From Rhynchopus sp. YZ270_cl-10 (lineage: Eukaryota > Euglenozoa > Diplonemea > Diplonemida > Diplonemidae), in contig OZ037860.1 of the NCBI GenBank assembly GCA_964035575.1, forward strand, positions 768,689 to 832,688: a stretch of DNA of 64,000 nt, read 5' to 3'. This document shows positions 3,951 through 61,790 of this stretch, piece by piece (positions within the stretch are counted from its first letter, which is position 1; each line of letters begins with the position of its first letter). The notes beneath the pieces are model-generated. The model saw nothing but the letters and a program-made list of their open reading frames with translations. It made no database searches and was not told the origin of the DNA. The position numbers and the translations under genes are program-made.

Positions 3951-4070
3951 AGTCTTGTAAGATGATCCAGATTTAACGTCACTAGAGTCACGTTTTGTAA
4001 GCCTCACCGTACACCGGCGGACGCATGTCATTTGGTACTTCGCGGGTTGTCGAACCCCAGAGAGCACAAA
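3951..4070 (-). repeat. directional hairpin element, long copy
   Basis: In minus sense: a GGGTT/AACCC hairpin (GGGGTTCGACAACCC), then ATGCGTCCGCC, CGGTGAGGC and CATCTTACAAGACTTTTTTT. This is one of the fullest copies, showing both the 5-prime hairpin module and the 3-prime branch-point-like module. No gene adjoins it. Confidence 0.65.
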
Positions 4071-4189
4071 AAAAAAGGGGGAGATGCAAGTAAATCCCTC
4101 TCAGTCACCAAACAAAGAAGGGGGCAATGGGGGCAGTGTCCTGTGCCAAAGATGAGGGCTCAGACAACCCGTAAACAAAAAAATTTTTT

Positions 4190-4240
4190 TTTTTTTGAAA
4201 GATGAACGTGCCTCTTGTGCACGAACATCATTAAAGTGAG
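4190..4240 (-). repeat. directional hairpin element
   Basis: Plus strand reads AAAGATGAACGTGCCTCTTG then TGCACGAACATC. The GTGC/GCAC inner stem and the T-rich flank match the other copies. Confidence 0.65.
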
Positions 4241-4829
4241 GTACTTTGATGCGGGCACACACCCCTCCAATTAAACCCGGATGAAAGCACAAAAAGAGAG
4301 GAAGCCATTTTTTTTTGTCGTTCTTGTAAAAAAAAAAAAGAATTGAATTATGAATGCATTCCTTCAATGATGTGTTCGTGATATTTTTTTTTTTTTTTAA
4401 TTGTATCGAAGACATAGGTGTGGAGTGGGGGTGGGGTTGACCAAGCAATAAACCAACCCTGTATTTTGTAGTATTTTTTTTTCTCTGTGTTTTACAAATT
4501 AAAAAAACCCACGAAACTTTTTGTGCGTTTAAAGGTAAACCAATACGTTACAACCAGCCAATGTATTTAAAAAAATACGTTTGGAGGGAAGGGTAAGAAA
4601 GGGAACAAGATATGTGGTGTGTACCTTGTATTTTCGCTGTACTGGGGGGGGGGGCTAATAAAGTATACGGTGCTAATAAAGTATACGGGGGTAATAAAGT
4701 ATACGGTGCGGAAACCCATTTTGAGCGTGTAAATCTGTGAAATAAAGTATACGGTTTTTGTGTACATTTTTCTTACTAAAAAAATTTTACAGCAATTTTT
4801 GCACAAAAAATCGGAATTTTTTTTTTTTT

Positions 4830-5341
4830 CACGGGTCAGGAAAGATCTTTTGTATTTTTTTGTCTTTTTTCGAGAATCTCGGGAGAAAAAAAAAAAAAAT
4901 CAAGATTTTCAGGATTTTTGTCTTTTTTTTTCAGGATCTCTCGAGATCTTTGAGATCTTTGAAAAATCCTGGAAAAAAAAGGAAAAAAAAGGAAAAAAAG
5001 AGAAAAAAAGATGAAAAAGATCTTGAAAATCTTTTTTTTCTCAAAAAAAAGATAAAAAAGATTTTTGGGATTTTGAAAAATATTTTTGGGAAAAAAAAAA
5101 AAAAGATTTTGAAAATCTTTTTTTTTTTTTTCAAAGATTTCTCAAGATCTCGAGATTTTTCATGAAATTTCATGGATTTTTCCAGGATTTTTCAGGATTT
5201 TTTCAGGATTTTCCCAGGATTTTCAAATCTTTTCTCTTTTTTTTTTTCTCCCAAAAATCTTTTTTTTTTTTTTTTTTTCGGGAGAAGAGGATTTTTTTTC
5301 TCGAAAAAAAAAAAAAAAAAAAAGATCTTTCCCGACCCGTG
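4830..5341. mobile_element. nested 512-bp AT-rich foldback
   Basis: Begins CACGGGTCAGGAAAGATCTT and ends with the inverse AAGATCTTTCCCGACCCGTG, one mismatch in about 22 bp. Between them the DNA is almost only A, T and GATC-like words, with A-rich blocks opposed to T-rich blocks, so one strand could fold along most of its length. Lys/Phe-rich open frames on both strands are artefacts. Confidence 0.65.
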
Positions 5342-5464
5342 TTTTTTGATTTTGGTGGTCCGGATTCTGTGCGTGCTGTGATGGGGTCACTTTGAGCTGA
5401 GAAACGAGTATTTTTGACCTAAAACGCGTGTATCAGTTTTTACACGATTGGTGCTGATGGGGTT

Positions 5465-5560
5465 CAGATTTGTGAAAATTTAAGTCACCAAAAAATTGTT
5501 CATTTTTCCACATTGACCCCACCACTGGCTGGGATTGGCCCAAAAATGTCAATGGTGGTG
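5465..5560 (+). repeat. GACCCCACCAC-family repeat
   Basis: AAAATTTAAGTCACCAAAAA is followed by TTGACCCCACCACTGGCTGG and GCCCAAAAATG. Relatives lie at 13155-13215, 17840-17915 (both reversed), 60700-60790 and 60965-61050. Likely a MITE-type family. Confidence 0.55.
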
Positions 5561-13561: not shown

Positions 13562-15582
13562 TTAGAATACAGAGCGCTGCTGCTCAAGGTCCATACCCTC
13601 ACCCGGGGGGAGGGCCTGCGGGGTTCCGTAGGAGCGTGCGGGGGCCTTGTCGTAGTAGTTGGCAACGTCTCCGTCGGCCTGGGCCATCACGTCTGGGTGT
13701 CCGCTCTGTCGGGTGATATTTTACAAAATGTCAAAAAAGGACAAATTCTTTAAAAATCTAAATAAGAATGTAAGACGCTTGACCAAGAAAAAGTTGTAAG
13801 ATGAACCTCTCGTGTTCTGCACACACATCTGTATTACCATGGTTATCGCGCAGGAAGACGCTGGGTTTGAAGATGGGCTCTCTCTTCGTAGTTCAGGGTG
13901 TAAATGCTTTTAGCGTTGTGGATGATTCCGAGCGAATTTGGCTCGATTTACAAATAATTTTGTGATTTGTTTCAAGACATACCAGAGCGCCGAAAACCTC
14001 GTCGTAGGTGGGGGACTTGTTCTTCTCCTGGCGGTTGACGAAGAAGAACCCTGCGCCCACTCCTCCCAGACAGAGGATACCTCCAATGACGGCGATGATC
14101 CACCAGGGGAAGTCGCTGCCGTCGTCCTCGGGGGTCGGTGTCTCGCCTGCGGCGGCGGCGGACACGGAGAGACCCTCAGTTTGCATGGAGGAGCACTCAG
14201 CAGGGGCAGTCTTGCATGCAGCGAGCCTATGGGTGGTGGGGTAAGTGAAGTGTGAAACCGGATGGAAATGTTATCTCATAGAACACTGAAAATTAGGAAA
14301 TGATCCGTTTAGGTCATTTTATGTATGGCTGCGGAAATAAAGCAAGACAAAACTGTGTGGTAAAAACTCACAGCTGGGATAGTATGACATACTGGGCAGA
14401 GTGCGACGGGGAGGAGGGCACGTCGACCTCGACAGCGCAGGAGCCAGCCTCGCATGAGGAGTGGACGGAGCACGCAGACCCGACGTTGACCTCGGTGTGG
14501 TGGATGCCAAGGTCTCCTGCGGCGGCGGTGCGGATCTGTGCCTGGTAGTTGGCGTCGAGGGTGCAGCCGTTGGTGGGGTCCGAGCACGTCGCCGTCGGGG
14601 GCTTGAAGCAGAACTTGGTCTCGGAGTCTGTGGGCGACAGCGTCTTCGGGTTCGTCGGGGGTGCGAATGTCGACCCAGCTGGGACTGCCGTCGCCGGGAC
14701 GCCAGTCGGCGGGATTGTCGGCGCAAAGGTGGACCCAGCAGGCAGGCTGGTCGGTGCGTCGGTGGCCGGTGCGGTAGTGGTGGGTGCGTCGGTAGACGGA
14801 GCGAAGGTGGATCCCGCAGGCAGGTCAGTGGGTGCAACCGTGTCCGGTGCGTTGGTGACCGGTGCAGTGGTGTCCGGTGCGAAGGTGGATCCAGCGGGGA
14901 GGGAAGTGTCCGGCGCGTTGGTGGCCGGTGCGGTAGTGGCGGGCGCGTCGGTCGACGGAGCGAAGGTGGAGCCCGCGGGCAGGTCGGTGGGTGCAGCCGT
15001 GTCCGGTGCGGTGGTGTCCGGTGCGAAAGTGGATCCAACGGGCAGGGAAGTAGGGGCGGCCGTTGGGGGGGCATCGGTCACAGGTGCCGTCGTTGCCGGT
15101 GCGTCAGTGGCGGGTGCGTCGGTCGACGGAGCGAAGGTGGATCCCACAGGCAGGTCGGTGGGTGTAGCCGTTTCCGGTGCAGTGGTGTCCGGTGCAAAGG
15201 TGGATCCAACGGGCAGGGAAGTGGGTGCGGCGGTGTCCGGGGCACCAGTAGCGGGTGCGCTGGTGGCGGGCGCGTCAGTGAGGGGTGCGATGGTGGGTGG
15301 CGCATCTGTGAGGGGCGCATCGGTGAGGGGTGCGTCCGTCAGCGGGGCATCGGTGAGGGGCGCATCTGTGAGGGGCGCGGTGGTCTTGGGTGCGTCGGTG
15401 GGTGGGGCGTCAGTGGTAGGTGCGATGGTCACGGGGGCGGTGGTGGGTACGTCGGTTTCGTTCGCCGTAAGCAACAAAACTTCCTCTCTCGAGTACCACT
15501 CATCAGCTTCGTTCTGGTTCTGTGCAGACACCTGCGCAAACGACGACGCGAGCAAAACAGCGACAACAATTGTGGAGCGCAT
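13562..15582 (-). CDS. mucin-like type I membrane protein
   Basis: Three exons: 15582-14372, 14226-13983, 13705-13562; introns of 145 and 277 nt with donors GTGAGT and GTATGT; 532 residues. A signal peptide (MRSTIVVAVLLASSFAQVSA) leads a Thr/Pro/Ala region to about residue 300, built of TDAP, TTAP and GSTFAP words, likely heavily O-glycosylated. A Cys-containing fold follows with a SEA/ferredoxin-like look (LGIHHTEVNVG), spanning the exon 1-2 junction. Then a transmembrane helix (PWWIIAVIGGILCLGGVGAG) and a short cytoplasmic tail in exon 3 ending QQRSVF. Intron phases restore frame at both joints. It probably coats or protects the cell surface; no known orthologue recognised. The anchor resembles that of the EGF-like protein at 24306-29538. 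Intron 2 carries a directional hairpin element. Confidence 0.8.
13785..13840 (-). repeat. directional hairpin element in intron 2 of the mucin-like gene
   Basis: Minus sense: GCAGAACACGAGAGG, then TTCATCTTACAACTTTTTC. It shares the GAGAGG core and branch-point-like CTTACAAC with the other copies, and it lies in the same sense as the host gene. Confidence 0.65.
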
Positions 15583-16238
15583 TTTTTATAATCTAGACCT
15601 TTTGTGGTGAAAGGACCTTTGTGTTTTTCTGTGGGTATGTGTGACGTAGCTCCTTTCCAACACAACAGGGGAAACACAAAACCCACACACCCCCTTTCTT
15701 TTTAATGAATCCCATGACAAAATAAAAAAACCGTATTCCCGATATACCAACCACATCGGGTGGGGACTCCTGCTCACCTCTCCCCTGTTCACATTCCTCT
15801 ACTGGCTCTAACATGGTACTGCACCGCCTCCACTAAAAGACACCCCATTTTACACAAAATACGGGTCACTTTCTTGGGCAAACAAACTAATGTCAGAGTA
15901 GCAAAGTGCACACCGTCTTACTGAACAACCATACGGAACGCAAGCACCGTCTCTTCTGTTGTAATCCTTCGCAACATTTCGTCTTGAACGCAATGAGAGG
16001 GTAGGACCCCACATAATGCTCTCTATAAGGATTACTTTTTTTTTTTTGAATTCCATACGCAATAATAACCAATTCCCTTAGCATGATTATCGTCCATTTA
16101 TCCCTTTTTGTAGCATCAATGATTTGTCAAAAAAAGAGACGTTCGCTTTGAAGAAACAGCACACATGCTCCTCATAGCAATCCCTGAAGGGTGTGTCAGA
16201 GGACGCATAACACAGAGGTTGGTATGAAAAAATAAAAT

Positions 16239-16290
16239 TTGTAAGATTCAATGAACGTGCCACTCTCGTGCACACATAATCTTTACCACT
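16239..16290 (-). repeat. directional hairpin element
   Basis: Plus strand ATGAACGTGCCACTCTCGTG then CACACATAATCT. In minus sense CTTACAAATTTTATTTTTTC follows, i.e. branch-point-like then pyrimidine-rich. Confidence 0.6.
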
Positions 16291-16699
16291 ATCGTTATCG
16301 TGTCCAGAGAGCCCTTCATAAAAAAATAAATCTGGTGCTACCCCATGAGAACCTTTGTAGGTTCCCGTCTGTTACGTCTTTCCAGTATTTTTTTTTTTTG
16401 CACGGAGTAGCTAAAACCCCCGTGTTTCCCCCCCCTAAACAGCATAACGTTAGGGGGTACGGTTACTCGCCTCCACTATCGAAAGAGGAAGGGAATTGTT
16501 TTGTTTGTTTGTGTTTTCTTGTCAAAATTTGACCTGCAAAAAAAAAAGAGAGAAAAGAGAACATTGTTTTAAAATGAAAACAAAAAAAAACTAAAAATGG
16601 TGCTCCGGGAGGGGTCGATTTTAACAGGTCACTGACACAGGGACTTTAGACACCCCCCCTTATGTTAACAGGTCGCGACAGGTTGACCGATTTCCAAAA

Positions 16700-17075: not shown

Positions 17076-17116
17076 AAAACTTTTGAAAAGATGAATCTGC
17101 CTCGTGCACAACCATC
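17076..17116 (-). repeat. directional hairpin element
   Basis: GAAAACTTTTGAAAAGATGA then ATCTGCCTCGTGCACAACCA. It is 40 bp from another copy of a different stem subtype. Confidence 0.6.
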
Positions 17117-17152
17117 AGAAAAATGGTTGCAAAATATGGCTTAGCCACCTTC

Positions 17153-17199
17153 AACATTTTATAAGATGACCCCAAGCCTCTCGGCTTGGTCACCTTTAC
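17153..17199 (-). repeat. directional hairpin element, strongest stem
   Basis: Within AAGATGAC...GTCACCTT the inner CCAAGCC and GGCTTGG pair perfectly around a TCTC loop, then TGA/TCA and AAG/CTT pair outside. Comparison with 30821-30861 and 47858-47905 shows the stem kept while its bases change. Confidence 0.7.
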
Positions 17200-29538: not shown

Positions 29539-30549
29539 GTGTACTCTATAAGCGTGTCTTCTGGAGGGTGGCTGGGGGAGGGGGAGGGGGAGGAGAGAAA
29601 AGGGAGAGGCAGGGAAGCAACAGTACCGGGGGCAAACAATTTTTTTTTTCCCCCTTTGAGACGTAAAGGCGAGGCCCCCCTTTTTGTGTCGCAACATAAT
29701 TATACCCTCCCCTCCACAGCTTTTGTTCACATTTTGAAATGTTACCACTCATTGCCACCTTTGGCACATTCCTCTCAGTGCAGTGCAGACAAAAACTTCC
29801 CGCCACAAGGTGCGCCACGAATAATACGGCTTAGAATTTAGGTCACAATGTGCCCCTTTTTTATCAATGCAGATAAAGGAGGAGAACAATGCAGCCGCAA
29901 GGAGACGCACGCAAAACACAGCTGTAAAGCTGTCTTCGTGGGCAAAGCAACACATTTAATTGGGGCATAACACTCCTTACTCCCGACCCTCCCCCACCTA
30001 CCCACCCCCAAAGAGAGAGAAGTTTTCACAGTGCAACCCACCCTCACCGCCTCAATCGGCGGGTGCAGGCACTGCTCCCAGAGGATACTGCTGGAAAGCA
30101 GAACACCAAAAAAAAAAACCCCCTACACAACCCTTCGTAGCATCACACCCTGTGATTGTACATTGGACCTCTATAAAAAAATGCTGAGAACGCAAACACC
30201 TTCATTGAAAAAAAAAAATATTCGCTGCTGCTCCCAAAACGCCACAAATAGGAGCAGTGTGTCTCCTAAAAATGCAATGCCCAAATGAGCTCAGTGGAGA
30301 GAGGAAGGGACAGGCAGCTTGATATGGGCGGGACAGCAATGGGCTACAGGCTCCAAAAAAAAACTAAACATAACATTACCCCAACTGATCTGGCCTTACT
30401 ACTCTACTATGTCTTTTTCTCGTTGACTGCAGCAAACAACATTCGAGATAATCCTGACCTGAGGAAAGTAGTCACCTGGGGGGCGGGGAAACCCCCACAC
30501 GGTGCGGTACTTTTGATTTCCTTTCGCATGATGTTCTCTTCGCCGCTTT
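29539..30549. other. intergenic, nothing recognised
   Basis: Upstream of the EGF-like start and downstream of the DPY-30/paladin-like gene. An acceptor-like CACCCTCCAG ends 26 bp before the EGF-like ATG. No gene or repeat found. Confidence 0.5.
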
Positions 30550-33500
30550 CTAAATTGCCTGGCGCACGGCCACCTAGATGCATTAGAGGTAAACAGATGA
30601 GAAAAAAAGGGGGCGTTATTACTATGCCATACCTCCTTATGCCACCTTTCGCTGTGCGACATCCACTCCTTTTTGATTTTTGGTTGCTCCTGGATGTGGT
30701 GTGGTTACCAATGCCATCCGGTCAGTCTCTTCCCCCCTTTGGGGATTGCCAAAAAAAAAAACCCCCCTAATCATCACACTTTGGTCACAAATATAACTAA
30801 CTACCTCTATCATCCAAAAGAAAAGATAAGATGAACCTAAGCCCGCTTAGTCACCTTAACAATACAATACTTAAACAATACCTGATGCTGCCAGGGGTCT
30901 AATTCGAATACCCAACGGACCGCAGATTCGTGTTCTGTGAGGATCCAATCTTGGAATGTGGCTGATGTACGTGGTTTAGATGCGTCGTTTTCGGTTGGGC
31001 GGAGCACGGAGGCGACTGATGGGCGGGAGGGTGTAGGGCTGGGTGGGAGCACCTCTGTGTACTGCCCATCACGCAGGGTCGCAAGCAGCCATGCACAGTA
31101 GAACAGCAACACCGCATACGACTCGACATCACGACACGCCTTCTGCACAACACGCCGCCGCGTCCTTTCGTCCATCTCCACCGCCGGATCCGACAGCGTC
31201 TCAAACGCTGCCGCCATCCCCCCTACCACCATCTCCTCAAAATGATTATTCCCACACTCAAACAACTGCTCCATAAACAGCAACGCATCAGCCAGCCCCA
31301 TATCCACACCCAAAGGAGACTTCACCAACAGATCGATACAGGGGAATGGGGAGAGAAGGGGTTCGCTTTGGTCAAAGCTTTCCTCTGCGATGACGTCTGC
31401 AGTGATTGACATAAGACGTTGGGTAAGGGTAAGGCCTAGACCCCCGGTCGTTTCTTCTGAAGAGACGGTTTCGCTGGTGGAGCAGGAGAGATCTTCGGAG
31501 TCTTCAGAGAAGTCGGAGTCTGAGTTGGTCGGTGCAGGGGTATGGCAGGAAGCGTGCGATGTTATTTCACTGTGGCGTGCAGAGGAAGGTGCGGAAGGTG
31601 GGCGTATCTCTACAGCAGCTTGAGCCCGTTGTGACAGAAGTGTTTCTATCACATCCTCATCAGTAACCTTCTTGCAGAAGACAGCAAACGCTGCCGCCAC
31701 TGCCGTCGTAAACACCGCATTGAGCTCTTCCGAATGCCCAACAACAAGCGCCAAATCATTAAACGAAAACCCCCCCTCATTCTCTGCAATGCTCCCTACA
31801 GCCTCCCGCACCACCTCAGCGAGGGTGTGAAGCGACTTCAACATACCCGGGGAAAACCCAGGCAACACAGCCTGCCTTACAAACAAAAGCTCGCCGCCAG
31901 AAGCGGAATCCCGGAAGGTATTCCGGAGAATCTTGCCATAAGGGGAGACCTGCGTAGAGAACTCAAGGGTGAACGCTGTGGAGCTGAAGGATGCGCGGGT
32001 TGTTGCTTCCTGAGAGGGGTTGTGTGGTGAAGACCGGAGAATGTGTCTGGATGAGAGGGAAATGGGTGCACAGCAGAGAATAAGACTCGGGAACCCGGTT
32101 ATTCTCAGCCGGACTGGGACCCGGGACCAGGACCGTGACCCGGCTTATTCTCTGCTGTGAAGGGGTGGGTGGGAATTGGCATACCGTCGTCACACCGTTC
32201 TCGATGGTCGTGTAGGGCACCCCGCCGTTGTCCAGCTTTGTGGCCACCTCTTCTGCGGCTCCTTCCTGTGGGTTGTTTTTATTGTGTTGACGTATCTAAC
32301 GAAGAGCGGGGGTTTTTTGCACCGAAAGGGCCCCCATCTCTGATGTATCGAAATGTCGCCAAAAAGGCTGTCACAAATGGTCAACTGAAAGTAGTGTTTT
32401 GCGGAAATATTGAAATGAGAGTGTAAAGAACAAGAGAAACACTCTATCCCATACCTCCAATGCCGAGAACGTGTGTCCCAGCACCTTCTCCTCGCGTGAG
32501 GACACCCGAATGAGGTCCTCTGTCAGCAGTGGATGTGGCATCTCCCTGCGAGGTGTGAACTGTGTTGATTCCTCCATGAAGAGTTCCGACCGCTCTGCGT
32601 CGTGTCCACGCAGGAGTGACGCACTAGGAGACTTCTCCGTGAGCTCCTCTGAGATCTGCGCGGCTGTGAACTCACCCCTCTCCACATCATCTGCCTTCTC
32701 TGGCGACGACGTCACCGGGTCCTTCACCGCCTTGACGCCATCCACGTCAAGGTTCTTCGAAGTAACAAGATCACTCTCCTCCGCAGACCACTCCGACGTC
32801 GCCTTCTTCAACTCCGTCTCCTTATCCTGAACGACATTGCTCATCGACGCTGCGCTAGTCACCCCTTTGCTCTGGCGTGATTGAACCGACTTCCGTCTGC
32901 GCTCTTTTCGGTCCTTCTTGGCTTCTTTCTCTTTGTCTTTGTGCTTCTCCTTTTCCTTTGTCTCGAGCATGGCTTCCAGCTTGCAGAGGTCCACTATCTT
33001 CTGCATGGCTGAGGAGGAGGCGTCGGGTGGAGGCGACGGCAGCTCTGCCACGACGCTGCCGATCTGCTTCACCCAGAGGGTGAGGTCTGGTGTGAGGCAT
33101 GTCCAGATGGTGAGCTTTGCTTGTGAGACGGCGGTGAGTACCTCGTTGATGTGCTCCGGGTCGAGCACGGCGGGGACGGACAGTACAGAGAGCTTGCGAG
33201 AGAAGCGGTGGAAGACGTATGTCTTCTCCATGCGTGAGAGCGAGACCTCCGCACCGGGTGAGGTGTTGCGCATCTTCTTCGTGTCGGCGGGCTTCATGGA
33301 CGACCGTGCTGCCAGACGCTTAGGCACATTGTACGACAACACACGGTGCGTCAGATACGACATCACCTTGTCCTGCAAGGAAGACAGGTCGCTCTTCCGC
33401 AACTTCGAAGCATGCGTCATAACATTCGCGATCGCAGCCGTGGCCTCAGGTAAGTTCGGCAGGCACGCAAAGGCCTCCGGAGAACGGAGGTACTCATACA

Positions 33501-35265: not shown

Positions 35266-36786
35266 TGTTAGGTTTGTTTTGTGTGTACTGCAAATGATAT
35301 TTAAAGCTCAGAAAAGTTTTTTTTTTTGGTATACAAAGCCGCCGCCTTTACAAATCGTGTTCGTGCAGCATCACCCGCTTGGCTTTTGCGCAAATTGAGG
35401 ATTATAGGGCGTGCTCAGATTGAGTTTGTAATTTTGGTAATGTAGTGAGAAAAAGAAACACAAAAAAAAACCCCTCATTTTTTTTTTTTTCGGACGTCGG
35501 CGGACTGACCACCTTAGGAAAAAGAAGACTGGGATAGTGGGGGACGTGGAGGCAACACCGATAGGTTGTTTGGTGATCTGTTGGCTGCATGAAGCTACTG
35601 TGGCCATAAGGCTCACACCTTCGGAACAACAAGGCTCCTTGAAGTGCTACACCTGCCAGTCCATTCGGACTCGTAGACATCATGCCGACAAAGTGTTTTC
35701 ACTTCTCCAAAAAACAAAAGCAGCCTTAAGAAAAACGGCGACCATCCACGGCAAGATGGCCAGGCCTGCAAGCCGTCACCTCCCCTATCTCCGCTTCGTG
35801 GAGTACCGATACGTAACGAACGGGGATCAGTGGAACCCCCAGGATCAAATCCCAGGTGCGATACGGTGTTTTGGCTGTTGTGAAACCCAAGTACACACGA
35901 GAAAAAAGAACAAAGCTGCGCACAGCGCATCCATTTTGCAAAAAAACATACATAAACAAAATGGCAAAGGGCATGGGGTAATAAAACAGAGAACGCATTT
36001 TGCTTCGACGCACCATCTGTGGAAGCATCTTCTTTTTCGTTGTAAACTATCGCAAGAGTATTTTTTATGGGTATTTTTTCTTCAATTTCCTGAGCAAGAA
36101 ACAGAAGGATTTGTTGCCAATGTTGTACAAAAAACGAAAATAGTAGTTCTTGATGTGGGCACCTTCCTGACCCACAACGCTAGCCCGGATGAAGACACAA
36201 AATTTGACTTGAAGTGCAAAGCCCTCTCATGGCAGTGTGCCTTGGAAATAATGAACACGCCGTCTTTTGTTTAGTTGGTACAAGGTAAAAAAAACTGCGG
36301 AGTGCGCTGTATTGGTACAAAAAAACCCCCATGAACGGGATGGATGAGAATCACAAAACGTGGAGCAAAAAACAAAAAAAAAAAAATGAGAAAAAAAAAT
36401 GTGATTTCGTTAGTGTCTCTGCAACCGCAGGCGCACTGACAAAACCACAAAAAAAATAAAATAAAATCAACACCTGTCAATGACAAACACAGCAATACTA
36501 ACAAAACGACATACAAAACAAAAAACTCACCTTGTGCGCATTTTTTTGGGGGAAGAAATGGGGAACAGAGAACCTTTTTTTCCAAAAGAGGTTTCGAAAA
36601 AAAAAGCTAATCTCTTTAAGTTTAACAAAGGGAGAACAATCAGTTATAGCAAATTGGGATATATTTTTTTTAGCTTATTCGGTGGTTTTTTTTAAGTCGT
36701 TTCTTAGCACTTTCCCCCCCCTCCTCCCCTCCCTCCTTCAAACACATTTTAGCCCTTTTCCTCACCCATTTTTTTTCATTTTCCTC
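35266..36786. other. intergenic with one directional element
   Basis: An acceptor-like TTTGCAG lies 25 bp upstream of the DPY-30/paladin-like ATG. A 245-codon plus-strand frame at 35537-36274 has no protein-like features and overlaps the element at 36201. Otherwise AT-rich; nothing recognised. Confidence 0.45.
36201..36246 (-). repeat. directional hairpin element, TTCAAG subtype
   Basis: GACTTGAAGTGCAAAGCCCT then CTCATGGCAGTGTGCC; GCC/GGC stem around CTCTCAT. Closest to the copies at 44925 and 50976. Confidence 0.6.
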
Positions 36787-38994: not shown

Positions 38995-41900
38995 CTAATG
39001 TGCCAGAGCAAGTCCCTGTGGAAAGAAAAAGCAGTGTGTTGGTGAGGTGGCGAAAAGGTTAGGTTCATATTCAATGCGAGAGAAAAATCATGTGGAATGT
39101 ATAAAAGTGAAGTTCACATTGTGCAAGTGCTGGGGGGAATGGGGAGGGGGATAAAAAAATAGTAACTCTGATAGGGAAGTAAACGGAAAAAGGTTTTTTC
39201 GTTGATTGCACAATTACCCTGTTGGAGGGGGTGATTGGCGACCGTATCTGAGGAACTATTTCTCCTTTAAGCTACGCTTTGTAGGTATAATAACAAAAAA
39301 TCAAAAACATACCCTCAACTGCGTCCGCTTCTCGTTTATCTCTCGCAGGCGGGATTCAATGTCTGACTGCTGCGGAGCCTGTCAAGGAGAGTGTTCATAC
39401 AATAAAATATATGGGTCAATTTTTTAACCCCCCCCCTCAAAAGTTCCACGGCCATTTTTTCGGGTTCTACACCGTTTGAGCCCCCACAGGTGTACAGAAC
39501 CCCCCTGGAATCGGTTTTGAGCGACTTGTGGCGGTGTTTTGAGGCAAAGTGGCACTTTTTTTGCTATTTTCAGGCTATTTTTGGCCATTTTCAGGCTATT
39601 TTGGCCTGTTTTGGCCTATATTCACTGTATGACCGATTTTTCGGGTTTTATGAGGTTTGAACACCAACAGGTGCCACGAAACACCCCAGTACCGGTTTTG
39701 TGGGCCTCCTGTGGGGTTTTGGGGGTGAAATATACCGTTTACTCTATGTTCTGGGCCATATTGGGGTGTTTTTTGGCCATGTAGGCCTGGTATGTGCCCT
39801 ACAGTGCATAAGCCAAATTTGGGTGTTTTGAGGGGTAGAGGGTCATGGTGGTGCGTTCATGACTCGGTGGCGGCGACGCTTATTGCTCGCTGTTCTGGCC
39901 CTATTTCCCCAATTTCACCCCTCCCCGACCCTTTTCTGATGAAGATCTTTGACGTGCTCGGTCCCGTCGCAAATGTTCTTTGTGAATGTTCTTCATAAAA
40001 TAGGGGAGCGTCAGGGGGGTCAAAATAGCTATTTTTGACCAAAAAAACACCGATAAACACCAAGAAAAGTGTCGAATATGTCCGAAACAGGTCGGAATTG
40101 GTTCACAGCCCATTTTTGGGGTATATTTGGGCCAAAGGAGGCCTCCTGGCGTCAAAAAAATCGTGTTTTTTTGGTCAAAAATAGCTATTTTGACCCCCCT
40201 GACGCTCCCCTATTTTATGAAGAACATTCACAAAGAACATTTGCGACGGGACCGAGCACGTCAAAGATCTTCATCAGAAAAGGGTCGGGGAGGGGTGAAA
40301 TTGGGGAAATAGGGCCAGAACAGCGAGCAATAAGCGTCGCCGCCACCGAGTCATGAACGCACCACCATGACCCTCTACCCCTCAAAACACCCAAATTTGG
40401 CTTATGCACTGTAGGGCACATACCAGGCCTACATGGCCAAAAAACACCCCAATATGGCCCAGAACATAGAGTAAACGGTATATTTCACCCCCAAAACCCC
40501 ACAGGAGGCCCACAAAACCGGTACTGGGGTGTTTCGTGGCACCTGTTGGTGTTCAAACCTCATAAAACCCGAAAAATCGGTCATACAGTGAATATAGGCC
40601 AAAACAGGCCAAAATAGCCTGAAAATGGCCAAAAATAGCCTGAAAATAGCAAAAAAAGTGCCACTTTGCCTCAAAACACCGCCACAAGTCGCTCAAAACC
40701 GATTCCAGGGGGGTTCTGTACACCTGTGGGGGCTCAAACGGTGTAGAACCCGAAAAAATGGCCGTGGAACTTTTGAGGGGGGGGGTTAAAAAATTGACCC
40801 ATATGAAGACACAAAAAAGCAGACACAAAGAAGTTGAAAGAGCAAACGCCTCACCGTCCGCGACGAATAAAATAAAACCTCTAAGATGAACGTGCCCCTT
40901 GTACACATCTTTTAAATACAAATACAAAAAAGTTAACCGTGCAACGCCTCTGCGAACGCTCCACTTGGTCTGCCGCAGAGAGACCACATTGCCAACACAC
41001 GATACTGTGTACAAATATCACCCATAACATACCCTTCTCGGTGGGCTTGTAAACCGAGCCGTTGCACCTTTGCTGTTGAACGCGCCTGATGCGGAGGGGA
41101 AGGAGGCGAAGCTGTCCTGCTTTCCGCTGATGGAGCGGGGGCTGAACCCGCCGTCATGCTGCGGGGAGTGTGGGAAGGCACCTGCAGCTGCGACTGCTTG
41201 GCTGTAGGGGCTGGGCGGGCCTGGGGGACCGGGGGGGCTGTGGGAGACGATGTGCTCCTGGAGTGTGGGGTGGAGGTGCGACTCTGGGGTGGGGTGTGTG
41301 TATGCGAGGTCGAGCGCCTGCAGGGCGGCCTTTGTCTCTGGGAGGGGAAGCTGCCCCATGGCCTCCATGCCTTCGTAGCGGTCACGCAGCTGCCGTGATG
41401 GGATGCCCCCCGTCAGCCCCATGATACGAAGCTTCGAATCCCTCCCCTTCCCCATCACAGACAGCTGCGTCTGGTCCACACCCAACGCCGCTGCCACGTC
41501 GCGCTTCACTGTGCTCTCCAGCTGGTTGTAGTCTATCTGCGACAACGCCTTGTTCTGCCACACTGCGCTCACCGAAAGAGGCATCGGGAGTTCGCTGTAC
41601 TCAATATCTGCCGTGTCCAGTGTTGGTGTGTCAACAGCCTGCACCTCTGCCGGGCCAGCACCCACCACAACAACAGTGACCTCACCCTTGGTCGCATCGT
41701 AGTCGTTGATGAAGTCGCCACGAAGGGTGTACGCACCATCGCTGCCGCGCTCTGTGTCCAGGTGCAGACGCATCGTGCTGGTGTGCCCGACCGCCCATTC
41801 AATCAAGACCTCTGCAATACGCCACGTCTCGTTGTACTGCCCGCGGACAGGCTTCGGTGGCCCCCCCATCCCCACACGGACGTATTCACCACGAAGCTTT

Positions 41901-44924: not shown

Positions 44925-44976
44925 GAAAAATAAAATTGACTTGAAATACAAACCCCTCTCGTGGCAGTGTACAGAG
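44925..44976 (-). repeat. directional hairpin element next to a splice acceptor
   Basis: Minus sense: TACACTGCCACGAGAGGGGT then TTGTATTTCAAGTCAATTTT and ATTTTTCTCAACAG. The element passes straight into the acceptor before the 44894 start codon. Confidence 0.7.
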
Positions 44977-45375: not shown

Positions 45376-45424
45376 TAAAAAGAAAACTTGAAAAGGTGAA
45401 GTGTTCCTCTCGTGCACATCTTAA
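45376..45424 (-). repeat. directional hairpin element
   Basis: Minus sense GATGTGCACGAGAGGAACAC then TTCACCTTTTCAAGTTTTCT: close to the family consensus. Confidence 0.7.
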
Positions 45425-45493: not shown

Positions 45494-45640
45494 TGTGGTC
45501 ATGGAAAGTCGGCATCCCGAGTGGTCGCTCATCAGATCTCACAAAGGGTGTAGGTTCATCTAGACAGCAGGACGGTGGCCATGGAAGTCGGCATCCGATA
45601 ATGAGAGTGTAACAACTCACCTGCCGAATGAATCCTCAAT
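45494..45640 (+). pseudogene. LSU (28S) rRNA fragment
   Basis: AGACAGCAGGACGGTGGCCA, TGGAAGTCGGCATCCGATAA and GTGTAACAACTCACCTGCCG with GAATGAA match a highly conserved eukaryotic LSU rRNA segment, in order. Just upstream (45494-45520) a part of it, TGGTCATGGAAAGTCGGCAT, is repeated. Only about 100 nt of LSU is present, so this is a displaced fragment. Confidence 0.85.
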
Positions 45641-45750
45641 GGATATCAACACATTCTAAAAACAGAACGGGTTGAACGCTACTTTTCATTGTTGAGGGTG
45701 GTTAAGGAGGGTCAACCGCCCTACAACCATAACATATATTGGGGATATTA

Positions 45751-45803
45751 GAAAGAAAACTTGAAAAGGGTGAAATGTGACTCTTGTGTGCACATCTGAA
45801 AGA
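45751..45803 (-). repeat. directional hairpin element
   Basis: Minus sense GATGTGCACACAAGAGTCAC then ATTTCACCCTTTTCAAGTTT and TCTTTC. TGTG/CACA replaces the GTGC/GCAC stem of its sister at 45376, keeping the pairing. Confidence 0.65.
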
Positions 45804-47091: not shown

Positions 47092-47857
47092 TATACCCTT
47101 TGTGTTTGGTGACCATATCGGGTTCGATCTGACACCCAACAAGATGAAAAAAAAAAATCGACACTTCTCGCCAGACATCATCAACGAATATTTCTAAAGC
47201 AAACATCATTACATTATCAATGTGTACCGAAAATGAGTGAAGAGAAAAAATGAACTCAAAAAATGAGAAGAGGCACACACAGATGCAATGTACATGACAT
47301 ACGAAAAAAATTGTACTTGAAATACAACAATGTACCTTCATGACCGGTACACCGCGAAAAAAAAAAATATTAAATCTAAGTATCTCATCCTCGTTTGGGA
47401 CCCCCCCACTTTATTTACTCAGTCCTTTTTCCACCCTCCCGACCCCACCTTTTCTTTTACAAAGCGTCACAACAGAGAGAGAGAGAGACAAACACCAGGT
47501 TAAAGTTCGTACATTTTCACCCTTTTTTTGTTTTTTTTTGAAAACTTTGACAACGTGTACCCCCGCGAACGGGCAATCCACGTAAAAATTTTTTTGCTTC
47601 TTTTTTAAAATTCGTTCCCCTAGAAAGGGTGTACCCTTATCAACTCTAAGTATTCTGTCCAACACTGAACAATATCCTTTTTGAACTGCCCCCCTTTTTT
47701 TTTGGCTCTGTGTATAAAAAAACCCTCCCTAGGGAACAAACCGAAGGGACGATAGAATCGAACCTCAATATGCAATACTGGCTTCTTGCCCAGGACACCG
47801 CCAGCACGGTTGTGCCGGTGGAAAGGAAAAAAGGGGGGAAAAAGGGGGAAAAAAGGG

Positions 47858-47905
47858 AAAAGTTTATAAGATGAACCTAAGCCTCTCATTGCTTGGTCAC
47901 CTTGA
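47858..47905 (-). repeat. directional hairpin element
   Basis: AAGATGAACCTAAGCCTCTC then ATTGCTTGGTCACCTT; the same stem subtype as 17153 and 30821. In minus sense a long pyrimidine tract follows (CTTTTCCCTTTTTTCCCCCT). Confidence 0.7.
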
Positions 47906-50497: not shown

Positions 50498-50502
50498 TGC
50501 CA

Positions 50503-50975: not shown

Positions 50976-51036
50976 AGAAAATAAAACTTCGCTTGAAATG
51001 CAACAGCCCCCTCGTGGACAGTGTACTTCAGTATGA
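50976..51036 (-). repeat. directional hairpin element
   Basis: Minus sense TACACTGTCCACGAGGGGGC then TGTTGCATTTCAAGCGAAGT and TTTATTTTCTCCCCCC; same subtype as 44925. Confidence 0.6.
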
Positions 51037-51111
51037 CCGGGTGTACCGGGGGGTGGACCCCCCAACCATGCAGTCCTACATCCATTTCGTGGTTTACATC
51101 TGAAAATAAAA

Positions 51112-51165
51112 AAAGAAAATCTTGTAAGATGAGCTAAAGTCACGGTGCAAACTTGGTCAGAAAAA
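51112..51165 (-). repeat. directional hairpin element with acceptor-like end
   Basis: Minus sense TCATCTTACAAGATTTTC, TTTTTTTATTTTCAG: branch-point-like motif, pyrimidine tract and AG in canonical order, though no exon is recognised after it. Confidence 0.65.
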
Positions 51166-51543: not shown

Positions 51544-51588
51544 ATACCAGGAGCATTAACAACAAAAGGTTGACAAGCCTTAAAAAGG

Positions 51589-56386: not shown

Positions 56387-58856
56387 CTAGTCCACTATAT
56401 CCCAGTATTCGGGCGGGAGGTTGCAGAAGCGGAGGTGCCAGTTGGGGTTGTACTGGAGGCGTTCATGGTCGTAGAGGTCTGTTATCTCTGGGATGAGGGC
56501 GTGGCGCCAGGCGAGTTCTCTAGGGTATGCGGTGTAGCCCATCTCGCCAGGGCGGAGGAGGTGGATGACGTCTTGCATGCGCTCTGCCTCACGCCAGTTC
56601 AGCATCGAGACATCCTCCTCCACAGGCAGGCACCGCCCCTGCACAAAGAACGCATCCGGTGTCAGAAACCCCTTCGCTGCCGCATGGCACTCCTCCGACA
56701 TCAGCACCTCCCCAGGGCGTGCCTTCCCGCACAGCTCGCTTGTCTTCATCAGTGCAGGCCCGAAGTAGCCTTCGTCCTGCAACACCAACCCAACATGCGC
56801 TGCAGTGCGCACTCGGGGGCCGTAGAACATATGATCATCTGTGGGTAGGTGGGAAGTTTATAAGATGATCCTAAGCCTCTCTGAAAAAAGCTCGTTGCGT
56901 TCCCACTATCGTTTCCGCTGCGCTCTCACTAGCGTTCCCACTCCATTCGGTTTTCTCTTAGAAAAAAGAACGGAAAAAGGAGAAGTGTGTGAGGGAGTTG
57001 CGTAGGAGGAGTTAAAAAACGGAATGATGGGGGAGTATACCTGCCAGCGCCACGCCTGCTTCCTCCTTGCTGTCCGCCTCTCCGCCGCACAGCGTTTCTG
57101 CAATGTGCGTGAATTTGTTAACGTCGCATGCCGGGTACGCCGCTTTGCCTGCGACGTGTGTCTTGTAGAACTCAACCTCCTTTGTGAGTGTGCTGAGGGG
57201 GTCGACGTCGGCGGAGGAGGCGATGCTGCCAAGTCCCTCGGGTGAGAGCAGGTCTGCAGGCCACTTCACGCGCATCATGGCGTACTGCAGCTGGATGGCG
57301 AAGGCAACGGCCTCGGGCTCGTTCTGGAAGAGAAGGCAGTAGTAGCCTTCGTTTGCGCAGCAGCCCTCACCCTGCACTGCTATTGTTGCATTGGCAAAGC
57401 GCGACGCCGCCACAACCAACGAGTTAAACGTATCCATCGTCGCACAGTTGGACCTTGCATGCTCTGCACCAAACTCCAGCGCAATAAACAAAATAGCCGA
57501 CGTAAACGCATTGCTCTTGTTCACAGTCGGCTTCGACACAGCCTCATGCGAGGCGGGTACGTCTTTATTCCGTGCAATGCGCTGCCGCCACATAACATGC
57601 TTCTGCCATCGCACAATCGTTTTCAGTTGCAGCGCATTCAGTCTATGGATGTTCATCGCCACATCAATGCTTTTGTCCCGCTCTGCGAGCACCAGAAGTT
57701 TGTGCTTATGCCGCTGCAGGTCTTCTCCGGTGGCTTCTGCGTCAGAGACAACGTCGTTGACGATGTCGCGTATCTGGTGGATGCCTTCTAAGGCGTGCTC
57801 TGTTTCGGAGATCATTTCATGGTCACCTTGCAGCATCCCACGCGACACGAGGATGCGGCAGTAGCGGTGCAACACCTCCATATGAGACGTTGTTTTGTTC
57901 ACCAAAGCGAACAGCTTCTGCTCCGTTGTGCCTTCATGCTTTGCGCCAGTATCCACCGCAAAGGCACCTAGCTTGAGTCCACAAAACTTTTCCTTGGTCC
58001 CCGACTTGCTCCCCACAGGCGATACAGGTGACCGTGTAACAAATCCCTCAGGCTTCAGCGCGCCATCTACCTTGTTCATCGGAGCCACCTCTGGTGTGGG
58101 TGGCATCTCCCCATCATCCCCGCTCATCTCGCCCAAGGTAAGCATCTCGTTGCCCAGCGGCACAAAAGGGTTGGGTTGGTTGAGGAGCTGCTCCACGTCA
58201 ATGGTGTCCTCGGTGGTGACCTGCACGTCGCTGAGGTTGAAGGCGGGGCTTATCGGGGCCTGCGCCTGCATCTGCATAACAGCATCGACGTTGGCGTCCA
58301 CGGTGCGCAGGCGGTCCGCAACACAGGGCGCAACAGGCGGTGCTGCGTCGTTCAGGACGTAGCTGTTGTTCGTCTTCCAGTCAGCCTGCTTCGACTCAAG
58401 CTCGGCCTCCTGAAGCTCTGTCAGAATGTCTTTGACTCGCAGAACTGCGCTATTGATCATGCGCCTCGCTTCACGCGACTCACCTTGCAACGCATTGCAT
58501 GTCATCGCTACCCTTGCATCGGGCATGTTTTGTTCTACCTCCGGCTTTGCAGCGAGCAACGCAAAGTTGCGGAACGTCTTGCGCGACGTCCCTGAAGACA
58601 CAGAGGCCATTGCTGTTGCAGGCCGTGGCGGCTGCGGATGCGGCGTTGTTGAGACAGGCACGCCAGGGGGTGGTGTCATGCACGACGCATGTGGCTCATG
58701 CTTCAGCCTAGCACTGCTCGGCACTCTCTTACGAGGCCGTGCAGTCGCTTGCCCCCCAAAGCCACCCCCAGACAATGGTCGCACTGCAGGGGCCGGACTC
58801 CGTGTCAAAGCTGCTACCATTTGTATACAACGCTGGATGGTAGTGGTGGCGGTCAT
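56387..58856 (-). CDS. degenerate class III nucleotide cyclase-fold protein
   Basis: Exons 58856-57041 and 56838-56387; 202-nt intron (GTATAC...CCCACAG), phase 1; 755 residues. The joint gives GVALADDHMFYGPRVRTAAH, the cyclase pattern GIHxG...YxGxxVNxAAR. Upstream are ILFIALEFGAEHAR, where active enzymes have FxDIxxST, and YYCLLFQNEPEAVAFAIQLQ, where GDSFM...AL is usual. Neither metal-binding Asp is visible, and an insertion of about 60 residues separates the halves. Downstream are ARPGEVLMSEECHAAAKGFL and a Trp/Tyr-rich end. It is probably a non-catalytic cyclase-fold regulator. The N-terminal 450 residues are low-complexity then helical, and unrecognised. The start at 58856 fits an ATG after a pyrimidine-rich leader; Met13 is an alternative. 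Confidence 0.75.
56853..56892 (-). repeat. directional hairpin element in the cyclase-fold intron
   Basis: Minus sense: GAGAGGCTTAGGATCATCTT then ATAAACTTCCCACCTACCCA and CAG. It ends about 15 bp from the 3-prime splice site of the intron, so its branch-point-like part is well placed to serve that site. Confidence 0.7.
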
Positions 58857-59002
58857 CGTGGTGGGGGAGAAGGAGAAGACAAAGTAGGAATACTTTTTTT
58901 TTTGACTTTGGTGTTTTTTCACATGGTCTTCCTTGCTGCACTGTGCAAGCAGGCTTGTTGTTACTGCCCGTACCCCCTCTCAGTCTGCTTAAGAAAAAAA
59001 AG

Positions 59003-59045
59003 AGAATAAACGTTTATAAGAACCTACCTCACTCCGTTGAGAGGT
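59003..59045 (-). repeat. directional hairpin element with acceptor-like end
   Basis: GTTTATAAGAACCTACCTCA on the plus strand; lacks the ATGA part of the stem. Confidence 0.5.
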
Positions 59046-59113
59046 AGAAAAGGCGCGAACCCCCTCATATCGGAAAATCGGCGGGGACGCAGGACGCACC
59101 TCACAGGCAGAAG

Positions 59114-59202
59114 ACAGTGAAGTTGATAGTGCACAACGTCTCTGGGACGCAGGCACTGATACTCTATCAGAGGCCATCGAACCCCGGAGAGCAGAGGAGG
59201 AG
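59114..59202 (-). repeat. directional hairpin element, long copy
   Basis: Minus sense: GCTCTCCGGGGTTCGATGGC, TGCCTGCGTCCCAGAGACGT and TGTGCACTATCAACTTCACT. It has both modules seen at 3951-4070; an inner CTGATA/TATCAG hairpin is unique to this copy. Confidence 0.7.
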
Positions 59203-59232
59203 GGGCTAGGCGCTTGGGCAATAACAACAAAA

Positions 59233-59290
59233 GAGAAATTGAAAGTGCAAACGCCTCACCGTTGATCGGACGCAGGCACAAATATTACCT
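59233..59290 (-). repeat. directional hairpin element
   Basis: Minus sense: GTGCCTGCGTCCGATCAACG, GTGAGGCGTTTGCACTTTCA, ATTTCTCTTTTG. Confidence 0.65.
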
Positions 59291-59662
59291 TTCGAATAAA
59301 AAGAACGGCTTTGCGAGATCACCAAGACCCCATCCTCATCCACCTTGTTATCCCCAAATGAACACCTTTCACCCACCCCTTCCCCCGCATTATGCACGTT
59401 TACATTGAGAACACTTTTATAGCCGAATGGCCATACGACCTACTGTACCCTTCCTTGGTTTTCTGTGTAGCTGCCTATTCACATACATCAACAAAACCAC
59501 ACCCCTTTTAAAGAAACCTAAAAATTCAACCCTTTTTTCAAAAAAAAAATGGACATTTCTTTACCTAGACACATTCACCCCCCTTTCTCCCCCCCGACCC
59601 CCTTTTATGCCCATCTACCTAAAGTCTAAAAGACCTCCCCCTTCCCCAGACGTTTGTCCTTT

Positions 59663-60319
59663 CTAGTACCGCATCATTGAATAGCTGGGCTGAAGGCTGG
59701 GAACCATTTGCTGTGGCACCATATGCTGGGGTGGGTGGACCATTTGCTGCGGCTGAGGCTGCGGTTGGGGCCTCGCTGCTATTTGCGCCGCAGTTTCCAG
59801 CCCCGAACGGTAGCCTGCTTGGTACCAGGCCTGGAGGAGGGCTTCGAAGGAAGGGTCGTTCTGAGGGGGGGATGCGAGCAGTTGTGGCTGCGGTGCTCCC
59901 ATTGGCTGTACGTTCATCTGTTGTGGCATCTGTGGTGCCCATTGTTGCAGTTGCGGATGTGGGTACTGCGATGTGGGATGGGGGTACTGCTGTGGTATGC
60001 TCTGGGGCTGTACTGCGGCTTGTGGGAGGGGGGTAGGGGCAGGCTGTGGTGCTGTCTCTGCCTTCTGCCGTTTCCGCAGCTTCTTCGCCTGGAGGACCTC
60101 CTTCTTCCCTGCACCCCCAAGAGGCGGCTGTGCCGAGGTCTTCCTCTTCTTCGCCCCCACCACCTTCTGCCCGCGCCGCTTCTTCACAGCGCTGTTATGC
60201 CCCAACGCGTCCTTCATCGCCTTTTCATAAGCCTCAATCAACTCACTGTCATCCCACAGTGCGGGGTCCGCCAAATCCTCTCCGGACAGCACAAGGCGGT
60301 CGGAATCGCTCTTCACCAT
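59663..60319 (-). CDS. SMN: SMN (survival motor neuron) homologue without Tudor domain
   Basis: 218 residues, single exon. Residues 17-37 (DPALWDDSELIEAYEKAM) match the SMN Gemin2-binding helix (WDDTALIKAYDKA). A Lys/Arg-rich stretch (KKRRGQKVVGAKKRKT) and a Pro/Gln-rich linker follow. Residues 157-180 (FEALLQAWYQAGYRSGLETA) match the C-terminal YG box that makes SMN oligomerise (LL.AWY..GY.SG). The Tudor domain that normally sits between them is absent, as in fission yeast Smn1. It should help load Sm rings onto spliceosomal snRNAs, which fits the introns seen here. The true start is the ATG at 60319, after a long T run with no AG. Confidence 0.85.
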   Translation of the reverse strand: MVKSDSDRLVLSGEDLADPALWDDSELIEAYEKAMKDALGHNSAVKKRRGQKVVGAKKRKTSAQPPLGGAGKKEVLQAKKLRKRQKAETAPQPAPTPLPQAAVQPQSIPQQYPHPTSQYPHPQLQQWAPQMPQQMNVQPMGAPQPQLLASPPQNDPSFEALLQAWYQAGYRSGLETAAQIAARPQPQPQPQQMVHPPQHMVPQQMVPSLQPSYSMMRY

Positions 60320-60531
60320 CGCCAAAAAAAAAAAAAAAAAAAGAAGGGAGGAAGGAAGTGTGTATGGCTGAGGAGTGTTGGGGGAAAAAAGTGTTGAAAA
60401 CCCAGATTTTTTTTGCCATGGTCACGTTTGCATTACATCAGAAATCATCTCTCATGATTTCTGAATCGGTTGCAGAGTTGGCTAGCCGAAAACAAAAAGC
60501 CTGATATTTGGGTACACAAAATATAATCCTT

Positions 60532-61058
60532 CTTTTTCAACTTACCTTCCTTCACCCCCCCCCTGTAAGGGCAACCGTAGGTGAAGTAAGGTATAGTATT
60601 GAAATCGATGTGGGGGGGGAGTAAAGGGTCAATTTTACAAAACCAGATTTTGAGGAAAATTTTAGCCGAAAATGGGCCCCACGTATAAGCAACCGGGCTC
60701 ATATTTCTCAAAATTTAAGTGGTCAAAAAATTGTCCAATTTTCGAGATTGACCCCACCACTGCACGGGCGGAGCCCAAAAATGCAAATAAGGACCCTTTT
60801 TCAACTTACCTTCCTTCACCCCCCCCTGTAAGGGCAACCGTAGGTGAAGTAAGGTATAGTATTGAAATCGATGTGGGGGGGGAGTAAAGGGTCAATTTTA
60901 CAAAACCAGATTTTGAGGAAAATTTTAGCCGAAAATGGGCCCCACGTATAAGCAACCGGGCTCATATTTCTCAAAATTTAAGTGGTCAAAAAATTGTCCA
61001 ATTTTCGAGATTGACCCCACCACTGCACGGGCGGAGCCCAAAAATGCAAATAAGGACC
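60532..61058. repeat. two tandem copies of a 263/264-bp repeat
   Basis: 60532-60795 and 60796-61058 appear identical except for one C in a C run. Each copy begins with CTTACCTTCCTTCACC, inverted a little later as GGTGAAGTAAGG, and ends with a GACCCCACCACTGCACGGGC member of the family at 5465, 13155 and 17840. Near-identity means a very recent duplication. Confidence 0.92.
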
Positions 61059-61700
61059 CTTTTTAATTTGTTCTCTTGAAATGTGTAATTTCATGTTTTC
61101 GCGAAAAAATAACGACTGATCCCACAAGGGTTGAAGGAAGGTGGTTGAAAACAACAATAACAACAAGGACAAGTAATTGCTAAGAAAAAAACGGGGTGTG
61201 CTGTGGAAAACCCCGCGCGATTTTCGAAACCACCGTAGCATCCTGGCGATTTGCTGGAGGTGCTGATGTGCCTGGTGTGATCGATGTGTTGTAGTCTGTG
61301 CATTCTGTGCTTCTTCCGCACTCCAACGACGACGACAATGTGGGGAGCCTGTGGACAAAAACGAGCTGGAACACGCCGAGCCTACCGAGCCGACGTCCAA
61401 CAACGCTATCGAGCAGATGGTGCTGGACGGAGAGGACAGCGCCCCTTCTTGAACGTTTCAGATGCTGGCGTCCCAGTGGATCTGGCAGCGTACGAAGAGC
61501 GTTAACATACCTGCAGAAGAGCAGAATGCTGGACGTGCTGTAGATTATTTCTACAGGATGGAGTTCCACATCACACCCCGTTTTTTTTCCGATAGCAATT
61601 ACTTGTTTTTGCCGAAAAAAGCAAACCCGCAAACCCCTTTAGTTTGATGTTAACTGCAAAGATAAGGACAAGGCTGAGGAGTGTTGGGGGGAGTTGGGTG

Positions 61701-61790
61701 TGAAGAAAGAGAAGCGATCATAACGCCTCGGACGCAGGGATAATGACACCCCTGTGCCCTGTGGGTTATCGAACCCCCCTGGAGTGTTGC
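61701..61790 (-). repeat. directional hairpin element, 5-prime module
   Basis: Minus sense: GCAACACTCCAGGGGGGTTC then GATAACCC, CCCTGCGTCCGAGGCGTT. The GCAACACTCC start is shared with the sequence flanking the SSU fragment at 38572-38598; the CATCTT part is missing. Confidence 0.6.

Follow-up and report, generated by a model that had tools for sequence, protein, structure and literature searches.

UnaL2, with its 3′ tail, is a long interspersed nuclear element (LINE) of the stringent type. In stringent LINEs the protein of the second open reading frame (ORF2) binds the cognate 3′ stem-loop, recognizing the stem generally and the loop specifically (available part of PMC4176376). In Leishmania, SIDER retroposons are about 80% sense in 3′ untranslated regions (3′UTRs), with an antisense excess in spacers, and short SIDER2 copies retain at their 5′ end the 79-nt hallmark of trypanosomatid retroposons (excerpts of PMC11520807 and PMC2689281); the sense excess is described as about four-fold (excerpt of PMC2689281). 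Diplonema papillatum has a 39-bp spliced-leader exon, genes that are probably transcribed together, up to 100 to a group, and abundant dispersed repeats and LINE-like genes, the top repeat having about 6,000 copies at ≥90% identity (excerpts of PMC10161547). Here we describe short hairpin elements in a 64,000-nt stretch of the genome of Rhynchopus sp. YZ270_cl-10 (C28:768689-832688 of a 152.4 Mb assembly in 126 contigs), which we call the window. In an initial annotation these elements had been taken for a single oriented family with a function at the RNA level. The dispersed hairpins are likely to be retroposed copies of LINE 3′ tails, whose stem would be under selection in the active source elements.

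Iterated profile searches (nhmmer) showed that the hairpin elements make up at least four sequence classes, and the idea of a single family had to be given up. The searches were made in a sampled set of 324 kb from nine contigs (the window, L001-L020 and L025-L030); as seeds and matches include window copies, the check on the window is partly circular. The 324 kb contained 44 class I, 11 class II, 17 class III and 16 class IV matches, whereas the same 324 kb reversed gave no match to any class model. After merging of overlaps, 73 elements could be anchored. In the whole genome (152 Mb), with up to 3 mismatches allowed, we found at least 4,598 class I, at least 1,615 class IV, at least 1,128 class III and at least 23 class II sequences, and none with the reversed-pattern controls. 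Where hundreds of copies had been expected there are thousands. Genome-wide positions mentioned below are among the 100 matches listed per class.

Class I, the commonest, is ~46 nt long and consists of a 13-bp stem with the loop ACGAGAG, followed by ATAAACUUUUC. Classes II and IV have a loop word in common with class I, and GGTTCGA words are present in class III. The hexamer GAGAGG, originally seen as the shared mark, is not diagnostic alone, occurring 26 times on the plus and 30 times on the minus strand. An Rfam scan of the window at the gathering score matched none of the elements; the sole match was a fragment of large-subunit ribosomal RNA (LSU rRNA). Roughly evenly spaced class I-like hairpins at C50:136642-180638 (~5.1 kb apart for most) and C88:500650-525084 (~3.5 kb for most) are probably carried in tandem arrays.

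The source of class I is a LINE. Three copies, on C40, C47 and C71, have open frames of 1462, 1097 and 1462 amino acids (aa), respectively, and the 1462-aa frame contains the domains Exo_endo_phos (1.4e-13) and RVT_1 (3.5e-24). A 644-aa frame upstream of this reading frame had no Pfam match over the cut-off. In the fetched 3′ ends the three copies are identical over the shared 170-187 nt, and the match stops just past a class I hairpin, beyond which a T run is followed by unrelated flanks. The stop codon and the hairpin are 10 nt apart: in L035 the final sense codon runs to 972, the hairpin occupies 986-1032 and identity ends at 1036/1037. A fourth copy (C3:1207045+), found in a reverse-transcriptase search in which 150 of 739 candidates were scored, has its hairpin at C3:1209403+, 1,723 nt after the reverse-transcriptase match, about as in C40. 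That class I is the 3′ tail of this LINE, with copies that consist of the hairpin only, is well supported. From their like orientation and, for classes II and IV, the shared loop word, we infer a similar origin for classes II-IV, as the tails of further elements.

The members of the four classes in the window, with covariance-model scores in bits and nhmmer E values, are the following.

47857..47903, minus strand: class I hairpin (LINE 3′-tail copy), full length; 60.4 bits (training sequence), nhmmer 9e-16
17152..17196, minus strand: class I hairpin, stem variant CCAAGCC/GGCTTGG; 52.1 bits (training sequence), nhmmer 8e-12
30817..30857, minus strand: class I hairpin, loop shortened; 44.0 bits (training sequence), nhmmer 1.4e-08
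56851..56893, minus strand: class I copy without the 5′ stem arm; 22.6 bits, nhmmer model positions 17-44
51114..51158, minus strand: possible degraded class I copy; nhmmer 0.027, 17.6 bits
61881..62033, minus strand: relic of the class I LINE in a decayed state, from the C-terminal end of ORF2; 163 columns at 68% identity to LINE positions 768-929, E 1e-6, frames broken
61797..61820, minus strand: probable class I tail, degraded, directly following the LINE relic; nhmmer 0.9, by eye, weak
13789..13889, minus strand: class II element, long form; nhmmer 9e-25 (model seed)
16234..16302, minus strand: class II element; nhmmer 5e-12
4188..4233, minus strand: class II hairpin; 37.9 bits (training sequence), nhmmer 5e-08
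17077..17118, minus strand: class II hairpin; 28.7 bits, nhmmer 0.01
40872..40912, minus strand: class II hairpin; 32.3 bits (training sequence), nhmmer 1.3e-05
45382..45422, minus strand: class II hairpin; 23.4 bits, nhmmer 0.0065
45771..45797, minus strand: possible class II hairpin; nhmmer 0.12
3991..4058, minus strand: class III element; nhmmer 8e-11 (seed)
59116..59185, minus strand: class III element; nhmmer 3e-12 (seed)
59232..59279, minus strand: class III element; nhmmer 3e-09
61707..61777, minus strand: class III element; nhmmer 1e-11 (seed)
40831..40862, minus strand: class III element, short; nhmmer 0.008
30016..30076, minus strand: class III element, absent from the initial annotation; nhmmer 0.007
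36199..36245, minus strand: class IV element; nhmmer 1.5e-12
44932..44972, minus strand: class IV element; nhmmer 3e-11
50983..51038, minus strand: class IV element; nhmmer 7e-13 (seed)
47307..47337, minus strand: possible class IV element, absent from the initial annotation; nhmmer 0.032

Nineteen of the 26 places originally proposed have a class-model match with E ≤ 0.01 within 40 nt, and two have a weak one (45751, E 0.12; 51112, E 0.027). The other five (23871, 38320, 46345, 50465 and 59003) have none at E < 1; 46345 gave a weak match to the covariance model (E 0.5). The statement that no copy lies in a coding exon held for the predicted coding segments, which contain none of the 73 anchored elements; two of 70 fall in stop-to-stop frames of ≥250 aa.

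Dispersed tail copies were compared with the last 1,032 nt of the LINE. The 324 kb contained 27 such copies at E ≤ 0.01, all on the minus strand. The 5′ end lies within 3 nt of the hairpin base in 17 of them and more than 8 nt upstream in none. With ordinary 5′ truncation the copies would be expected to vary in length. Two longer remnants of the LINE were seen, the relic at 61881-62033 of the window and one of 64 nt at 27675-27738 of the C5 sample. The flanks are T-rich (54% T on the 5′ side and 51% on the 3′ side of 43 copies, vs 30% in random noncoding sequence). Flanking repeats of ≥8 nt accompany 9 of 42 class I and III copies, vs about 3.0 expected from swapped flanks, class I being represented by 27 near full-length copies of its 43 minus matches. 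A looser form of the test gave 23.5% vs 11.4% (85 copies).

The class I consensus has a predicted fold of -13.3 kcal/mol (z -3.33), in agreement with the original description of a structured element. Evidence for covariation depended on the set of copies. In the diverged set there were 26 double-changed cells vs 8.0 after shuffling in the model-fitted alignment, and 10 vs 3.6 in a MAFFT alignment (0/500 shuffles in both cases), an excess that may arise from relatedness. The near-consensus set, 100 genome-wide copies picked only by loop, 3′ arm and GRTG, looked neutral. Single stem changes in this set kept the pair in 11 cases and broke it in 26; the kept/broken numbers, 11/11 for transitions and 0/15 for transversions, are those expected by chance. 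For the 36 distinct sequences they were 6/8 and 0/14. Double changes kept the pair three times and broke it twice, the three kept ones being one sequence at three C4 places. Where a T in the 5′ arm had changed to C, the partner was A in 23 copies, T in one and G in none (24 readable of 67 exact places), i.e. none of the 24 was compensated. These results, together with the identity of class I with the LINE 3′ end, do not uphold the view of the dispersed copies as functional RNA. We read this as selection keeping the hairpin in the active LINE, with dispersed copies decaying.

The orientation of the elements is strongly biased. Minus and plus matches in the 324 kb numbered 43 and 1 for class I, 11 and 0 for class II, 15 and 2 for class III, and 16 and 0 for class IV. 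The sole class I plus match is the palindrome of a minus match (C5 sample, 18930). In the sampled loci the covariance model found 51 minus and 2 plus matches, both plus matches overlapping a minus match. Coding segments in the 324 kb, predicted with a model trained on long frames, number 76 on the minus and 2 on the plus strand. The window alone cannot be used to judge orientation, as its predicted coding segments, too, are all on the minus strand.

We compared exact copies with coding references elsewhere in the genome. For class I the nearest listed exact copy agreed with the coding strand of kinase matches in 15 of 15 cases on C1-C10, at distances of 5 to 423 kb; one gene accounts for two of these kinase matches. 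Of the 100 listed copies of each class, 22 of class III and 14 of class IV had a coding reference no more than 50 kb away, and all of these were sense; with a 200 kb limit the sense:antisense ratios were 39:1 and 29:1. The references, here and for the LINE families below, omit a few kinase matches beside listed ones and include nine sampled places added as minus; the doubtful one on C50 (predicted coding 1,489 nt minus, 1,836 nt plus) fell within no distance limit. The prediction that copies are nearly all sense to genes was supported. Equal numbers in both orientations genome-wide, which had been put forward as a refutation, were also found (2308/2290 for class I). We judged this to be the wrong test, because genes are grouped in long blocks that are read in one direction, on one strand or the other, and the copies take the direction of their block: among the 100 listed exact class I copies the strand switched in 11 of 90 neighbour pairs, vs 45.6 after shuffling. 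A DNA element resembling miniature inverted-repeat transposable elements (a symmetrical inverted repeat found in both orientations) was not supported, given the nearly uniform orientation of the copies.

Members of the class I LINE family showed the same bias. With coding references they were 13 sense to 1 antisense, 13 of 27 copies being set aside without a reference within 400 kb. When class I elements were added as references the ratio was 15:0, with 12 of 27 set aside (≤300 kb); the use of class I elements on C1-C10 among the references makes this second comparison partly circular.

In the reading that we favour, retroposition of LINE 3′ tails, the terminal stem-loop of the LINE RNA would be the handle by which the ORF2 protein, with its endonuclease and reverse transcriptase, picks its template. 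Copying would set out from the 3′ end, at a nick within a T-rich tract of the sense strand, and would mostly go no further than the hairpin base; alternatively, the template may itself be a short hairpin RNA. Either would give units of ~46-50 nt. Selection would maintain the stem in active sources and the copies would decay afterwards. The constant loop and the changing stems would fit recognition by an ORF2 protein of the stringent type. Insertion would nearly always be sense to transcription if the primer or the target were available on one strand only, a limit that might be set by the direction of transcription or of the replication fork. We put forward tentatively, as a possibility somewhat short of even, that the LINE inserts genome-wide in one orientation relative to host transcription or coupled fork movement, mainly as hairpin-only copies of ~50 nt in which the copied unit is the recognition hairpin, with a strand-limited primer such as lagging-strand 3′ ends or transcription-exposed DNA.

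Several observations weigh against this interpretation. Two class III plus copies are real exceptions, antisense to coding, and isolated copies unlike their neighbours occur with no coding reference near (C1:1310442+; C3:1767247-). For two members of the class I LINE family on C9, the list of class I matches, which covers exact ones only, has no entry at about the distance expected. The search for an autonomous partner of classes II-IV found none: of two further LINE families tried as sources (1597 aa; 1619/1895 aa), one copy each was read, and neither had a class I-IV tail in the 263 and 419 nt after the stop. Longer truncated copies are scarce, which is unusual for target-primed reverse transcription, and target-site duplications are only suggestive (class IV 0/16 at ≥8 nt). 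Targeting of T-tracts is insufficient as the cause of orientation, since the sense noncoding strand has 380 T-tracts vs 318 A-tracts (≥8) and 239 pyrimidine vs 150 purine tracts (≥15). RNAalifold found four pairs without compensation in class III and no pairs in class IV, and shuffled sequences fold as well as a class IV consensus that was typed by eye (z 0.03). Decay of the copies does not account for the excess of changes in the 5′ arm over those in the 3′ arm (36 vs 11 cells), and given this excess the near-consensus class I copies may not be wholly unconstrained.

A host cis-acting RNA element of polycistronic pre-mRNA, acting in processing, stability or localization, with the LINE having captured or sharing the hairpin, would also account for the sense orientation, the covariation in the diverged set and the absence from predicted coding. 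Elements are, besides, mildly over-represented in the 400-1600 nt that follow long frames: 32.9% of elements lie within 800 nt of long-frame ends (18.9% random) and 47.1% within 1600 nt (31.9% random), and Leishmania SIDER2 retroposons have been linked to low mRNA levels (excerpt of PMC11520807). We consider this explanation improbable because the near-consensus stems look neutral, with 0/24 compensated, because the identical tail ends three LINE copies, and because 53 elements are spread over the gaps between coding segments without clear preference (an element was present in 1 of 25 gaps shorter than 1 kb and in 27 of 44 longer ones). The explanation first favoured was a branch-site or trans-splice acceptor module composed of the hairpin, a branch-point-like TATAAAC/TATCAAC, a pyrimidine tract and AG, in which case the copies, mobile or not, would mark acceptors. 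In some copies (44932, 56851) a pyrimidine tract, AG and ATG do follow closely, spliced-leader genes are numerous (745 matches), and the distance from the element to the first AG is greater than in shuffled flanks (median 27 vs 16). The distance to the first GA, taken as a control, is just as great (median 28), which shows that the exclusion is not specific to AG, and long-frame starts have no excess of elements (2.9% vs 2.7%); 5 of 53 elements are within 100 nt of a predicted coding start (9.4% vs 4.5% random). The acceptor module was dropped on these grounds and now appears very improbable. Resemblance to H/ACA small nucleolar RNA or to signal recognition particle RNA was weighed by eye only and set aside.

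Two further alternatives, both doubtful, deserve more weight. The hairpins could be independent families of short interspersed nuclear elements (SINEs), that is, short transcribed RNAs that have a 3′ tail in common with the LINE and depend on it for their movement; they would then not be aborted copies of the LINE. The 5′ boundary is sharp at the hairpin base, long forms of classes II and III have extra 5′ sequence, and LINE-SINE pairs with a common 3′ stem-loop are known (excerpt of PMC6510757); class I units, however, are the LINE tail alone, and no promoter or 5′ body was identified, promoters not having been searched for. The sense-only pattern, for its part, might come from selection that removes antisense copies and not from one-way insertion. 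In Leishmania 3′UTRs 82% of SIDER2 are sense and 18% antisense, and copies may affect mRNA (excerpt of PMC11520807). Against such selection stand two families of the same genome. A LINE family with a 1364-aa frame is, if anything, antisense: the sense:antisense ratio is 4:6 with coding references and 2:8 with element references added, 11 of its 21 copies having no reference in either set. An unrelated 104-nt repeat, in sampled minus-coding stretches, was sense in three and antisense in six cases, three of the six being one tandem cluster; the sense bias is therefore not general. One-way insertion is preferred because other mobile families in the genome occur both ways.

A spliced-leader pattern of the kinetoplastid/diplonemid type had 745 matches in the genome (≤2 mismatches; control 6). 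The exon ends in ACAGTTTCTGTACTTCATTG, which we take to be of the diplonemid type, and is followed by GTATGG; none of the papers found gave this sequence. A dinoflagellate pattern had no genome match, and dinoflagellate origin was rejected. The spliced-leader exon and gene co-transcription reported for D. papillatum fit with the spliced-leader genes found here.

The LSU rRNA fragment, of eukaryotic type (45516-45657, plus strand; Rfam E 5.5e-25), is antisense to the genes and has a class II hairpin on either side; for D. papillatum, some 3,600 scattered pieces of 28S are described (excerpt of PMC10161547). The 104-nt repeat occurs at 60611-60714 and 60874-60977 on the minus strand, 263 bp apart, and in both orientations in the C5 and L025 samples. 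By eye, 2600-2860 contains tandem TGTACCTG-like 8-mers between GGGGTACCCC palindromes. A gene at 48351-50355 (minus strand) has elongation-factor-Tu-like GTPase domains in two open frames, and its homologues include GTP-binding protein 1; a tRNA-Thr prediction that overlaps it (48591-48672, plus strand) is probably false. The segment C5:540000-600000 has many ~400-aa frames, several of them in tandem, and few elements.

LINE tails recognized by stem and loop, and a sense excess of retroposon remnants in the polycistronic Leishmania genome, were already known. The near-complete one-way orientation of the hairpins is unusual: the full-text literature searched, outside which most subscription papers lie, yielded no precedent for thousands of hairpin-only copies with almost none antisense. 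If the bias arises at insertion, retrotransposition would be tied to the direction of transcription or replication. The case also advises caution in reading oriented, covarying repeats as host RNA elements, as selection on the parent element can yield covariation.

The class I LINE resembles stringent LINEs such as zebrafish ZfL2 in its 3′-terminal stem-loop with constant loop and changing stem, and in its endonuclease and reverse transcriptase; as in SINEs that share stringent tails, short non-autonomous copies end in the stem-loop of the LINE. Unlike in these systems, the class I unit is the hairpin plus ~11 nt only and is almost always sense to host transcription. With D. papillatum the likeness is that of a euglenozoan genome with many dispersed repeats and LINE-like genes, the part of that source drawn on here giving no sequence, structure or orientation for its repeats. 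The Leishmania SIDERs are likewise non-coding LINE-like remnants in the polycistronic clusters of a euglenozoan, with a sense excess; what short SIDER2s retain is the 5′ end, whereas the class I copies represent the 3′ end of a LINE, are ~50 nt long and are nearly all sense.

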